Part shown: positions 11,562 through 33,149 of the stretch, piece by piece
Position numbering within the stretch: the stretch's first letter is position 1
Layout: the number at the start of each line of letters is the position of its first letter
Source of the DNA: an uncultured bacterium
Lineage (GTDB): Bacteria; Cyanobacteriota; Vampirovibrionia; Gastranaerophilales; Gastranaerophilaceae
Assembly: GCA_949288725.1 (NCBI GenBank)
Contig: CASELF010000093.1
Coordinates: 1-34,461 of the forward strand
Length of the DNA: 34,461 nucleotides
Direction: 5' to 3'
Translations under genes and position numbers: made by a program
The notes under the pieces: model-generated
The model's input: only the letters and a program-made list of their open reading frames with translations
Told to the model about the DNA's origin: nothing
The model's database searches: none

Positions 11562-11577
11562 TGCTAAAATTATGCTA
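11562..11577 (+). promoter_or_regulatory. Extended -10 of queF at leaderless spacing
   Basis: TGCTAAAAT (hexamer 11565-11570) ends 6 nt before the queF ATG. A transcript started 7 nt after the hexamer would begin at the A of the start codon. No Shine-Dalgarno sequence is present in this gap, and no strong -35 is seen. Confidence 0.5.
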
Positions 11578-12476
11578 TGAATTCAATCACAGATGAAATA
11601 GCTTCAAAATTTTTAGGCAAAAAAACAGAAGGGGCAAATGAATATAACCCTGAACTACTTGTTGCCGTTCCAAGAGAAGAAAACCGCAAGCAATACAATA
11701 TTGATTGCGACAATTTGCCATTCTACGGGAATGATATTTGGCACGCCTTTGAATTTTCAGCAATGACACAAAATTCAATTCCGGTAACAAAAGTTCTTAA
11801 AATAAAATACAACTGCAACAGCAAATTTATCGTAGAATCTAAATCTCTAAAATTATACTTAAACTCTTATAATATGAGAAGAGTTGGCTCATCAATTAAG
11901 CAATGTTTAGAGTTATGCAAAGCAGATATTATAAAAGACTTGAGCCAAAAACTTCAAACTGAAGTTGAGGTTGAATTTCTTGACAATAGAAATAAAACTG
12001 AAATTTTTAACAATTTTCAAAACATTATGGAATTAATCGATGAAAAAAATTTAAAAGTTTCAAAATTTAAAGAAGCACCTGAAGTTTTAAAAGTAGAAAA
12101 TACAGACAAATTAACCCCGTATTATCTTATGTTTGATTCTTTGCGCTCAAATTGTAGAGTAACACACCAGCCTGACTTTGGGAATGCCTTTATTTATTAC
12201 AAATCAAAAAAGCACATTGAAGAAAGCAGTTTGGTAGAATATTTGGTATCTTTTCGTGCAGAATATCATTTTCATGAAGAATGCTGCGAAATGATTTTCA
12301 AAAGACTTTCTGATTTACTTGATAAAGATGATGAACTTATGGTCTGTGCGCTATACACAAGACGTGGAGGTATAAACATTTGTCCAGCAAGATTAAGCAA
12401 TAACTTAAAAGCAGATGACAATATAAATAAGTTAATGAATTTATCAGAATACGCTTCTTACGGCATAAACCTTTAA
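11577..12476 (+). CDS. queF: NADPH-dependent 7-cyano-7-deazaguanine reductase QueF
   Basis: A 299-aa long-form (bimodular) QueF, which reduces preQ0 to preQ1 in queuosine tRNA modification. The N-terminal half has DIWHAFEFSAM and the family signature IVESKSLKLYLNSYN. The C-terminal half has SNCRVTHQPDFGNAFIYYK, with nucleophile Cys193 and Asp200 equivalent to E. coli Cys190/Asp197, followed by EYLVSFRAEYHFHEECCEMIF. All expected catalytic residues are present and the length is normal. No other queuosine genes are in the window. The ATG has no Shine-Dalgarno sequence and sits 6 nt after an extended -10, so a leaderless transcript is predicted. yraN follows 15 nt later with its own ribosome site. 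Confidence 0.96.
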   Translation: MNSITDEIASKFLGKKTEGANEYNPELLVAVPREENRKQYNIDCDNLPFYGNDIWHAFEFSAMTQNSIPVTKVLKIKYNCNSKFIVESKSLKLYLNSYNMRRVGSSIKQCLELCKADIIKDLSQKLQTEVEVEFLDNRNKTEIFNNFQNIMELIDEKNLKVSKFKEAPEVLKVENTDKLTPYYLMFDSLRSNCRVTHQPDFGNAFIYYKSKKHIEESSLVEYLVSFRAEYHFHEECCEMIFKRLSDLLDKDDELMVCALYTRRGGINICPARLSNNLKADDNINKLMNLSEYASYGINL

Positions 12477-27347: not shown

Positions 27348-27376
27348 TTTACAATTAATTTCACTCCTGATACACT
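27348..27376 (+). promoter_or_regulatory. Promoter of the 27383 gene at leaderless spacing
   Basis: TTTACA (27348-27353), a 17-nt spacer and an extended -10 TGATACACT (hexamer 27371-27376). The expected start, 7 nt after the hexamer, falls on the A of the ATG at 27383. No Shine-Dalgarno sequence lies between. Confidence 0.6.
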
Positions 27377-27382
27377 AAAAAC

Positions 27383-27880
27383 ATGAACGACACACTAAAA
27401 ATTATATGGGGATGCCTGATTCTTTTTTGTGTAATCAGCATAGTAGTTTCTGTCCCTGTCGAAAATACGCAATCACAAATAAAACGAGCGATTCTAAAAA
27501 AAAGACTTGCACCAATTGCAAGACTTGATGCCACTCAAAAATACCTTGATGAATACGAAAAAGATTCTTTTGATGATGTTTATATGTTTGGAGATTCACC
27601 CAGATTAAAATCATTATATTCCATTGAACTCGAAAAAAAAATGTCAGACTCTGAATCCAAGCAAGAAAATTCAAATATCAGAAAACCACTTTACATTAGA
27701 GATAAAAATAACCCAAACATCCTGCACAAATATCCCTACTATGAAAAACCTCAAACTTCTACTCGTTTAGGTTTCAGCGATATAATTAAACGTTTTCAAA
27801 AACCTCCGCAATTCACAACAAAACCTCCATACCCTCAAGATAAAAAAACTCCGCAAAGTTATCGGCCTATATATCCGTAA
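27383..27880 (+). CDS. Membrane-anchored Pro-rich small protein, 165 aa
   Basis: An N-terminal hydrophobic segment (about residues 5-25, LKIIWGCLILFCVISIVVSV) acts as a signal anchor. A charged helical part (KRAILKKRLAPIARLD, QKYLDEYEKDSFDD) follows, then a Pro/Tyr/Lys-rich tail (PPQFTTKPPYPQDKKTPQ). The tail would lie outside the inner membrane if the N-terminus is in the cytoplasm. I recognise no family. The ATG has no ribosome site but sits exactly where a transcript from the adjacent promoter should begin, so a leaderless mRNA is predicted. Its stop is 2 nt from the stop of the convergent 284-aa secreted protein gene, and no terminator separates them. Confidence 0.75.
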   Translation: MNDTLKIIWGCLILFCVISIVVSVPVENTQSQIKRAILKKRLAPIARLDATQKYLDEYEKDSFDDVYMFGDSPRLKSLYSIELEKKMSDSESKQENSNIRKPLYIRDKNNPNILHKYPYYEKPQTSTRLGFSDIIKRFQKPPQFTTKPPYPQDKKTPQSYRPIYP

Positions 27881-30311: not shown

Positions 30312-31496
30312 GTGATTGAATTTACGATTTTAATTCTATCTGTTTTATTAACAGGGGTGTTGGTTTGGGTGATTACTTCCAAGTTGTACGAAAAAGAAAT
30401 CTCTGAACTTAAAAACGAGAATTTTCAACTGAAAAATCAAAACGAATCTAATAATAATTTAATCAATGAATTAAAACTGGAATTTTCTCAAATTGCAAAA
30501 GATGCACTAAGTTCTCAACAAGAAACTTTACTGCAACAGCATTCAACTGATTTAAAAACAAAAATTGAACTGTTCAAAGCAGAAGAAATTACGCCAATCA
30601 ATAATTTGTTAAAAGAATTTAAAGGTGCAATAGATGAATACAAAAAAGCACATTCAACAGATACACTTGAAATAAAAAACGCTATTGCAACTGCAGAAAA
30701 ATATGCAAAAGCACTAACTACAGACCAAAATTCAAAAGGTGATTTTGGTGAAGATTTGTTAGAAAAAGTCTTGAATTTTGCAAACCTCAAAGAAAATATT
30801 CATTACACAAAACAACTTAAGACCGAAAACGGCAAACCTGATTTTGTCATTTATTTAGATAACAATAAACACGTGATTATAGATTCAAAAGTTATCTTAA
30901 AAAAATATATTGAATACAGACAATCAGATGAAGATAACAATTTAAAACAAGAATTTATCAACGATCTCAGCCATTGCATAAACGATCTCGGGAAAAGACA
31001 TTATGAAGATATTGGACAACTTAATCAACCGGGATTTATTTTACTTTATATACCAATAGAACCTTGTGTTAATTTGATATATTCTGATATTGACTTTAGA
31101 AAAGTATTGGAGTTGGCAAATTCGAAAAATATTATAATTATTGGAACTGCATCTTTAATAGTTGTTTTAAGATTAATCAATCAACTTTGGGCTTCAAGAA
31201 TTCAAGAAAAAAATGTTAATAATATTATTCTCTGCGGTGAAAAATTGTATAATAATATAGCACTTCACGCTCAAAGTCTGATAAATATTAAAGATTCAAT
31301 AGATAAAACTGCTAAAATTATTCAAAAAGAACTAAACAGATTTACAGAAAAAAATAATGGCAGTATATTTAAAGAAGCAGAAAAACTAAAAAGTTATGGG
31401 ATATTAGACAAAGGCAACACAGGAAAAAATCCAGCCTCTATTCCGGAAACATTTTTAGAAGAAAATTTAACAACAACAGGAGAGTTTAATGAGTAA
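30312..31496 (+). CDS. rmuC: DNA recombination protein RmuC
   Basis: A 394-aa protein in the usual RmuC arrangement. It has an N-terminal membrane span (residues about 3-20), a coiled coil (about 25-150, ELKNENFQLKNQNESNNN, ...), then the endonuclease-like core beginning with KGDFGEDLLEKVLNFANLKENI and KPDFVIYLDNNKHVIIDSKV, and LLYIPIEPCVNLIYSD. In E. coli rmuC limits DNA inversions at short inverted repeats; biochemical activity is not established. The GTG start has GAGGTTATT upstream. It overlaps the next gene by 8 nt (ATGAGTAA), so translation is coupled to a membrane protein. Confidence 0.93.
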   Translation: MIEFTILILSVLLTGVLVWVITSKLYEKEISELKNENFQLKNQNESNNNLINELKLEFSQIAKDALSSQQETLLQQHSTDLKTKIELFKAEEITPINNLLKEFKGAIDEYKKAHSTDTLEIKNAIATAEKYAKALTTDQNSKGDFGEDLLEKVLNFANLKENIHYTKQLKTENGKPDFVIYLDNNKHVIIDSKVILKKYIEYRQSDEDNNLKQEFINDLSHCINDLGKRHYEDIGQLNQPGFILLYIPIEPCVNLIYSDIDFRKVLELANSKNIIIIGTASLIVVLRLINQLWASRIQEKNVNNIILCGEKLYNNIALHAQSLINIKDSIDKTAKIIQKELNRFTEKNNGSIFKEAEKLKSYGILDKGNTGKNPASIPETFLEENLTTTGEFNE

Positions 31497-32676
31497 TAAT
31501 TTTGAAGAAAATAACAACTTTTTCAGTCCGGAAGGAACAATTAACAGACGTACATATATAACAAATTTCCTTATTGTCGAAACTTTAGAAGCAATATTTT
31601 ATACTACACCATTAATTTTAATATTAATATTTAACCCAGATATTATGAGCGAAATTTTGAGAACTCAAGTTGGGGCACTTCCTCGCTGGATAAATATATG
31701 GGGATTGTTAACAGTATTAGCAGAAGTTGCTTTTTTATATCCAAGTATTGTAAAAAGAATTAGAGATATTTCAGGTAATCAAGATAATCCTAATTGGGTG
31801 CTTATTGCCGTAATTACACCATTACTTGTATATTTACCTGTACCTGCTCTTATTAAGCAATTACTTTCAGGAATGTCATTTTTCATAGTGATTTGCCTAA
31901 TGAGTATGAAAGGTAAAATCTCAGGCGAAAGACCTAAAAGCGAAGTTGCTAAATTCAACTGGGGAGCATTCTTCGGAACTTGGATTTGGGGTTTGATAAA
32001 CAAAAGTTATCTTACCTTATTTGCTATTCCGCTATTTTTCACAACAGGTTTTATACCTTTCATGATTCTTTGCGGAATAAAAGGAAATGAGTGGGCTTAT
32101 AAAAACAACGAAAAACCTCTTGAAGATTTCCACAAATCTCAATCTTTACAAGCAGGAATTTTTTCAACCGTAATACCTATATTTTTCGTTTGTATATCAA
32201 TAATTGGAACGCTTTCAGGAACAATTGCATTTGCTAAATATCTGAAAAAACATCCTGATACAACAAAAAGAGTTGAAAATTATGCTCAAAAAATGGTAAA
32301 AACAACCACCGAAGCAAGGTTTAAACAAATAGAATTTACTGATAATGAATATAAATTTTACCTTGATCCAGTTGAATGGGATAAATTACCAAAGCAAAGT
32401 AAATTAAATCTTTTCCAAGTAACAGAATCTTACGTTGTAATGTCAATAGATAAAGATTTCGACAAAGAAAAAGACATTGCTCCATATATAAAAGAATACA
32501 ATAAGACTAAAATCTACAGTACTTTTAATAATGAAATTCTTGCAGAATATTATTTGGATGAGCAAAAATATAATGAGTTAACTGAAAAGTATAACAAAAA
32601 GGAAATTTCAGCAAAAGAATATTTAAAAGCACTAACTCAAGGTTATAAATTAAATGAAAACCCAACCTTACCATAG
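31489..32676 (+). CDS. Multi-span membrane protein with DUF805-like and DUF2628-like regions, 395 aa
   Basis: The N-terminal region (NFFSPEGTINRRTYITNF, then four spans, with KRIRDISGNQDNPNWV between two) resembles DUF805. A second region (FNWGAFFGTWIWGLINKSY, then GIKGNEWAYKN) resembles DUF2628-type proteins. A further span is followed by a soluble domain (residues about 260-395) with DNEYKFYLDPVEWDKLPKQ and a charged, probably extracytoplasmic, end. Both DUF similarities are read by eye, so they are suggestions. No function is known for either region. The ATG lies within the end of rmuC, with AGGAG upstream, indicating coupling. Confidence 0.8.
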   Translation: MSNNFEENNNFFSPEGTINRRTYITNFLIVETLEAIFYTTPLILILIFNPDIMSEILRTQVGALPRWINIWGLLTVLAEVAFLYPSIVKRIRDISGNQDNPNWVLIAVITPLLVYLPVPALIKQLLSGMSFFIVICLMSMKGKISGERPKSEVAKFNWGAFFGTWIWGLINKSYLTLFAIPLFFTTGFIPFMILCGIKGNEWAYKNNEKPLEDFHKSQSLQAGIFSTVIPIFFVCISIIGTLSGTIAFAKYLKKHPDTTKRVENYAQKMVKTTTEARFKQIEFTDNEYKFYLDPVEWDKLPKQSKLNLFQVTESYVVMSIDKDFDKEKDIAPYIKEYNKTKIYSTFNNEILAEYYLDEQKYNELTEKYNKKEISAKEYLKALTQGYKLNENPTLP

Positions 32677-32685
32677 CAATCATGT

Positions 32686-32714
32686 TTGTTGAATTATTAT
32701 TTGAGTGGTAAACT
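32686..32714 (+). promoter_or_regulatory. Promoter of gtrA at leaderless spacing
   Basis: TTGTTG (32686-32691), a 17-nt spacer and an extended -10 TGGTAAACT (hexamer 32709-32714). The predicted start coincides with the ATG at 32721. No Shine-Dalgarno sequence lies in the 6-nt gap. Confidence 0.55.
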
Positions 32715-32720
32715 TGAATT

Positions 32721-33149
32721 ATGAAAAATTTAGGTTTAATTAAAGAATACTGGTTTAAAATCCCTGATAAAATAAGATTTTTATTTATAGGAGGAACTAA
32801 TGCTGCAATTTCTTACGCTATTTTTGCACTTGCAGTTTATATATTAGGCCCGAAAAACTATCAGGCATGCGTAATCTTACAATGGTCATTATCTTCAGTA
32901 TTCTCGTACTTTAACCAGAAAATTTTTGTATTTGCAACAAAAGGAAATTACATCAAAGAATACCTAAAATGCTGCTCAACGTGGGCGGTAAGTTATGTTT
33001 TAAACGTTATTATACTTGAACTTCTTGTCCGTTTTGCAATAAAAAATGTATATCTTTCACAGTTTGTCTCAATATTTTTAGTATCTGTCGTAACTTATGT
33101 TTTATTTAAGTATTTCGCATTCAAAACAAAAAACAATGTTAAGAACTAA
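32721..33149 (+). CDS. GtrA-family membrane protein
   Basis: A 142-aa protein with four predicted spans and the GtrA opening IRFLFIGGTNAAISYAIFALAVY, then QWSLSSVFSYFNQKIFVF, a hallmark of the family, and a basic C-terminal end (KTKNNVKN). GtrA proteins help flip or supply lipid-linked sugars for cell-surface polysaccharide modification. The length is typical. No glycosyltransferase gene is adjacent, although a membrane GT2 lies about 14 kb away. The ATG lacks a ribosome site and sits 6 nt after an extended -10. It converges on the nitroreductase gene with 15 nt between stops. Confidence 0.88.
   Translation: MKNLGLIKEYWFKIPDKIRFLFIGGTNAAISYAIFALAVYILGPKNYQACVILQWSLSSVFSYFNQKIFVFATKGNYIKEYLKCCSTWAVSYVLNVIILELLVRFAIKNVYLSQFVSIFLVSVVTYVLFKYFAFKTKNNVKN

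Follow-up and report, generated by a model that had tools for sequence, protein, structure and literature searches.

Is gtrA in the window (the 34,461 bases of contig C93, analysed whole, from a 2.2-Mb Gastranaerophilales assembly in 102 contigs) expressed only from an operon running into it, or does it have a promoter of its own? Its product belongs to the GtrA family, scoring 53.9 bits against a curated cut-off of 26.1 for PF04138, and relatives at 94 to 65% identity are in records titled Candidatus Gastranaerophilales, Melainabacteria or uncultured bacteria. The rmuC-family gene and the 31489 gene (Table 1) overlap, from which we infer a two-gene operon upstream of gtrA; no terminator-like site was found between the 31489 gene and gtrA, so read-through from the former is possible. 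On the 3' side lies a convergent nitroreductase-like gene. The gtrA coding sequence itself contains, at 32970-32990 (+ strand), a terminator-like hairpin followed by a T-rich tail (0.1 in shuffles).

Table 1. Features in and around the gtrA start and the two similar layouts elsewhere in the window
Feature	Position	Strand	Remark
Layout TGnTANNNT-6-ATG before queF: TGCTAAAAT-6-ATG	11562..11579	+	ORF 11577-12476
Layout TGnTANNNT-6-ATG before 165-aa ORF without Pfam family: TGATACACT-6-ATG	27368..27385	+	ORF 27383-27880
rmuC-family gene	30312..31496	+	overlaps start of 31489 gene
Gene upstream of gtrA, 395 aa (31489 gene)	31489..32676	+	sub-threshold DUF805 match; 44-nt gap to gtrA; co-transcription possible
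Weak -35-like hexamer TTGTTG	32686..32691	+	17 nt from -10
Spacer, 17 nt, between -35-like hexamer and -10	32692-32708	+	ends in TGG
Putative extended -10 element TGGTAAACT	32706..32714	+	TG 32706-32707, TAAACT 32709-32714
Discriminator TTGAAT, 6 nt	32715..32720	+	T at -1
gtrA ATG	32721..32723	+	predicted transcription start at its A, from the spacing
gtrA, 142 aa, GtrA/DPMS transmembrane family	32721..33149	+	PF04138

The preliminary description had read the site as TTGTTG, a 17-nt spacer and TAAACT preceded by TG, with 6 nt left before the ATG; the letters match exactly. TAAACT occupies -12 to -7 of gtrA, i.e. it is a -10-like hexamer whose T lies about 12 bp before the start codon, the arrangement of leaderless genes, and in TGGTAAACT the TGn stands directly 5' of the TAnnnT hexamer, as in extended -10 promoters of the sigma-70 type. 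No SD (Shine-Dalgarno) word precedes gtrA. Both hexamers are weak (three of six consensus letters in TTGTTG, four of six in TAAACT), so the site is missing from the list of a simple promoter scan, and the gtrA region has no excess of promoter-like patterns (4, against 4.7 in shuffles). The earlier account needs correction in two respects. Leaderless transcription is here a prediction, and the -35 is the weakest part of this promoter candidate, because the closest relative, a congener, shares TGGTAAACTTGAATTATG unchanged but reads TTTATA in place of TTGTTG, the stretch before TGGTAAACTTGAATTATG having changed at many places.

Very probably, as far as sequence can tell, gtrA has here an extended -10 promoter of the sigma-70 type that makes its mRNA leaderless, a reading based on the excess of the motif at 6 nt, on promoter-like letters at unselected positions and on conservation. 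From an extended -10, RNA polymerase carrying the primary sigma factor should initiate about 7 nt further downstream. Such a polymerase would recognise TGnTANNNT with the -35 weak or absent, transcription would begin on the A of the gtrA ATG, and ribosomes would initiate at the 5'-terminal AUG of the resulting leaderless mRNA without the help of an SD. Alternatively, an rmuC-DUF805-gtrA unit, with gtrA as its third gene, might be the only source of gtrA transcripts, the extended -10 being a chance match in AT-rich DNA. The gap of only 44 nt before gtrA, with no terminator-like site in it, fits this idea, which we nevertheless consider unlikely; the identity of TGGTAAACTTGAATTATG in the congener, despite the changed stretch preceding it, is a first point against it.

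One site alone proves nothing, since the five matches to TGNTANNNTN6ATG in the window are within chance (mean 2.75; at least five in 14 of 100 shuffles). Three of the five are at ORF starts (11562-11579, 27368-27385 and 32706-32723), and the pattern search thereby identifies the three cases to which the preliminary description had referred: queF, the 165-aa ORF without a Pfam family, and gtrA. The TGATACACT-6-ATG site is also present in a congener.

Larger samples were taken from the same genome (904,618 bases, 727 ORFs) and from three congeners (400,000 bases, 316 ORFs). ORFs came from a simple script that required a length of at least 100 aa and a visible upstream stop and took the first ATG as the start; some starts are therefore wrong, and the signal is diluted. 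TGnTANNNT stands 6 nt before the start of 26 of the 727 ORFs; 300 shuffles gave a mean of 1.55 and a maximum of 7, and control distances of 9-60 nt a mean of 2.69 and a maximum of 9. The hexamer TANNNT alone is at this distance in 71 ORFs (shuffle mean 29.6, sd 5.3, maximum 44). The congeners agree, with TGnTANNNT before 13 of 316 ORFs (1.50 at other distances, 0.70 in shuffles) and TANNNT before 32 (shuffle mean 12.7). In Gastranaerophilales the leaderless-type layout thus appears to mark a minority of the genes: about 41 of the 727 sampled ORFs, or roughly 6%, are above shuffle expectation.

Internal ATGs gave no signal at the 6-nt distance. Before any ATG in the whole genome, TGNTANAAT occurs 54 times at 6 nt as against 39, 22 and 24 times at 5, 7 and 9 nt. 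Candidate ATG starts (n = 967) gave 38 hits at 6 nt against a mean of 4.03 at 10-49 nt. No excess at 6 nt was seen for GTG (0/157) or TTG (1/417) candidates, few of which are true starts. Counts at other spacings replaced a reversed-pattern control, which was set aside as too lenient given that -10 boxes are enriched in their own right. For the class as a whole, chance in AT-rich DNA is ruled out by the shuffles, the other distances and the internal ATGs, a single site staying compatible with it. The lineage-wide excess at 6 nt is also a second point against the view that gtrA depends on its operon alone and carries a chance match.

Do these sites look like promoters at positions that were not used to find them? 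Genes were picked only for TANNNT at -12 to -7 (103 of 1,043), and their letters elsewhere were compared with those of the other 940. TG at -15/-14 is found in 39/103 against 50/940, the AA of TAnAAT at -9/-8 in 53/103 against 102/940, and TT at -35/-34, which corresponds to a 17-nt spacer, in 36/103 against 123/940. The -35 letters are thus enriched across the class, yet TTGTTG itself is replaced in the closest relative, and in the congeners alone TTG at -35 is not significantly enriched (2/32 against 8/284). T at -1 is present in 83/103 against 443/940; leadered TGnTAnAAT promoters have it just ahead of their expected start in only 25/58, so that more than a general preference at start sites is involved.

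The preliminary description had proposed testing whether the layout belongs to SD-less and not to SD-bearing genes. By a four-letter rule 424 of the 727 ORFs have an SD and 303 have none, and the outcome was as proposed: TGnTANNNT at 6 nt is found in 26/303 SD-less and 0/424 SD-bearing ORFs, and in the three congeners in 13/133 and 0/183. That all 26 genes (and all 13 in the congeners) are without an SD match is partly forced by position, since the -10 hexamer occupies the place of the SD and the exclusion is to that extent physical. For TANNNT the figures are 64/303 SD-less against 7/424 SD-bearing ORFs, and the 64/303 compares with 9 to 22/303 at five control distances. Among SD-less ORFs whose neighbour is on the opposite strand, or on the same strand and at least 26 nt away, TANNNT is at 6 nt in 55/214, against a mean of 10.7 at other distances. 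The enrichment of TANNNT at 6 nt among SD-less genes is not explained by physical exclusion.

Could the motif at -15 to -7 act on translation instead, in a leadered mRNA whose initiation it would promote independently of an SD, for example as an AU-rich S1 site? It is carried by SD-less genes, and AT-rich signals have been proposed to bind S1 in other groups, according to the available part of the survey of Zheng et al. (2011, PMC3160421). An S1 site, however, is unlikely to give extended -10 letters together with a TT at -35/-34 spaced by 17 nt, or a distance fixed to one base and seen in 26 of 27 genomes of the family, and we regard this explanation as highly unlikely.

The preliminary description had suggested that the layout reflects how promoters are generally built here and not a regulation common to the genes, and both the enrichment of TANNNT at 6 nt among SD-less genes and the nature of the 26 genes bear this out. 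These genes are functionally mixed, including QueF, GtrA, MatE, radical SAM/HemN, Lyase_1, lumazine-binding, SRP54-type, NUDIX, UvrC, UDG, ChlI-type, GNAT and other products. Common regulation of the class was rejected, there being no function common to the 26.

How is the site before gtrA kept among relatives? Thirty gtrA loci were compared, leaving out L020-L022, which belong to other phyla and reach no more than 45% identity, the distant L047-L050 and L052 (44% or less), L051 (a second copy in genome G002) and loci judged to be duplicates. TGnTANNNT is exactly 6 nt from the candidate start in 13/30 loci and never in more than three at any distance of 7-60 nt. In these 13 the ATG is 3, 7 or 10 codons ahead of a conserved W, the 6-nt spacing staying constant. 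The intergenic gap is 26-295 nt in all 13, so that the motif at 6 nt is present in 13/16 loci whose gap is 26 nt or more and in 0/14 whose gap is below 20 nt (Fisher 4.8e-6, with loci that are not independent). TANNNT without TG is present at ten loci; eight of these are 9-19 nt behind a gene, in some cases with the hexamer overlapping the stop codon of the upstream gene, and are probably coincidences or operon members. These ten were consequently dropped as support (they would have given 23/30) and the 13 TG loci kept. Seven of the 30 have neither form. One locus (L006) has gtrA 18 nt behind a gene of the same kind as the window's upstream gene, and has an SD word instead of the motif.

Many relatives have a different gene upstream of gtrA, which indicates that the neighbourhood has been rearranged. 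A different upstream gene ending in RVIGAPIK(Q/E)(S/T)DKEL or a near-identical sequence was noted at L003-L005, L007, L008, L010, L011, L013 and L045. Operon expression of gtrA in the family is made probable by the 14 loci that have no TGnTANNNT at 6 nt and a gene ending less than 20 nt before gtrA; against such expression as the only source for the window's gene, the motif is kept at 6 nt with other, or divergent, upstream neighbours. TAAACT is the hexamer in nine of the 13 TG-bearing gtrA loci; TAnAAT predominates in other genes. A shared core of this kind, in related loci that share ancestry, could also mean that gtrA orthologues inherited the site from a common ancestor or owe it to one regulator acting on all of them, with the lineage-wide pattern unrelated to it. 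Since the layout before gtrA is the generic one, found before 26 genes of unrelated functions in the same genome, we hold this to be the least probable of the explanations.

Conservation was also followed beyond gtrA. In 104 reciprocal-best pairs between stretches of the same genome and of the three congeners, 17 genes of the former have TANNNT at 6 nt, and the spacing is kept in 14, in some of them with the remaining upstream region changed; SD-like letters also occur in a few of these pairs, and the leaderless genes among the 14 may therefore be fewer.

The spacing was surveyed in 50 of 194 genomes, hand-picked across genera. In 27 genomes of the family, TGNTANAAT precedes ATG 628, 1338, 593 and 435 times at 5, 6, 7 and 9 nt, and 6 nt has the highest count in 26 of the 27. 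Three genomes of another family in the class gave 15, 41, 33 and 34 at the same distances. There was no 6-nt peak in 15 further genomes of the phylum (495, 398, 394 and 328), which we infer, on the strength of phylum and genome size, to be photosynthetic cyanobacteria. In the other families of the order (241 ORFs, a small sample) TGnTANNNT at 6 nt occurred once against a background of 0.96, with no clear peak, and in the class outgroup (G058) it occurred in 0/48. A large-genome family from another part of the phylum (f12: G062, G068, G076, G090 and G095) gave 34, 119, 105 and 52 at 5, 6, 7 and 9 nt, raised at 6-7 nt. Within the family, little or no 6-nt excess was seen in two sampled genera, represented by G182 with other g29 genomes and by G242; this hints at loss of the putative leaderless class there.

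Taken together, we are inclined to think that Gastranaerophilales have a lineage-specific, ATG-only class of leaderless genes with an extended -10, absent from the presumed photosynthetic cyanobacteria sampled, and that, as gene order changes, a gene such as gtrA alternates between having its own leaderless promoter and belonging to an operon dependent on SD or coupling. This would allow many transcript starts to be predicted exactly in an almost uncultured gut lineage and start codons to be called better. It would also make the gtrA series a small natural experiment, in which a leaderless promoter is gained or lost as neighbours change.

Actinobacteria such as Mycobacterium tuberculosis have leaderless genes with a TANNNT-type -10 abutting the start codon, as here. 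Actinobacterial leaderless genes also use GTG; the 6-nt excess described here is at ATG only.

The leaderless, extended -10 kind of gene is thus known, and its report for the Gastranaerophilales lineage looks new: a literature search, with most subscription papers outside its coverage, found none on leaderless genes in Melainabacteria, Vampirovibrio or Gastranaerophilales. In the available part of the 2011 survey (PMC3160421), such leaderless genes are given for 207 of 953 bacterial genomes, and several low-GC genomes are described with a TG ahead of the -10; Cyanobacteria are not named among the groups listed there as having leaderless genes, many cyanobacterial genomes being said to use neither SD-led nor leaderless genes, so that this mode of initiation was unlisted for the cyanobacterial phylum. 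The nearest likeness described in that part is to the TA-led genes of Firmicutes, e.g. Lactococcus, which have TANNNT about 12 bp before the start, a TG, a weak or missing -35 and a low-GC genome (PMC3160421); unlike these, the present genes would be a minority class in another lineage, a non-photosynthetic relative of cyanobacteria. The '-10 region adjacent to ORFs' of Deinococcus-Thermus (PMC12340547), of which the available text names neither 'extended' nor 'Cyanobacteria', is similar in having a -10 a few bp upstream, leaderless transcripts and little need of a -35. The share of leaderless genes in Deinococcus-Thermus is around 40% according to the part of the survey at hand (PMC3160421), as against the roughly 6% above shuffle expectation found here.
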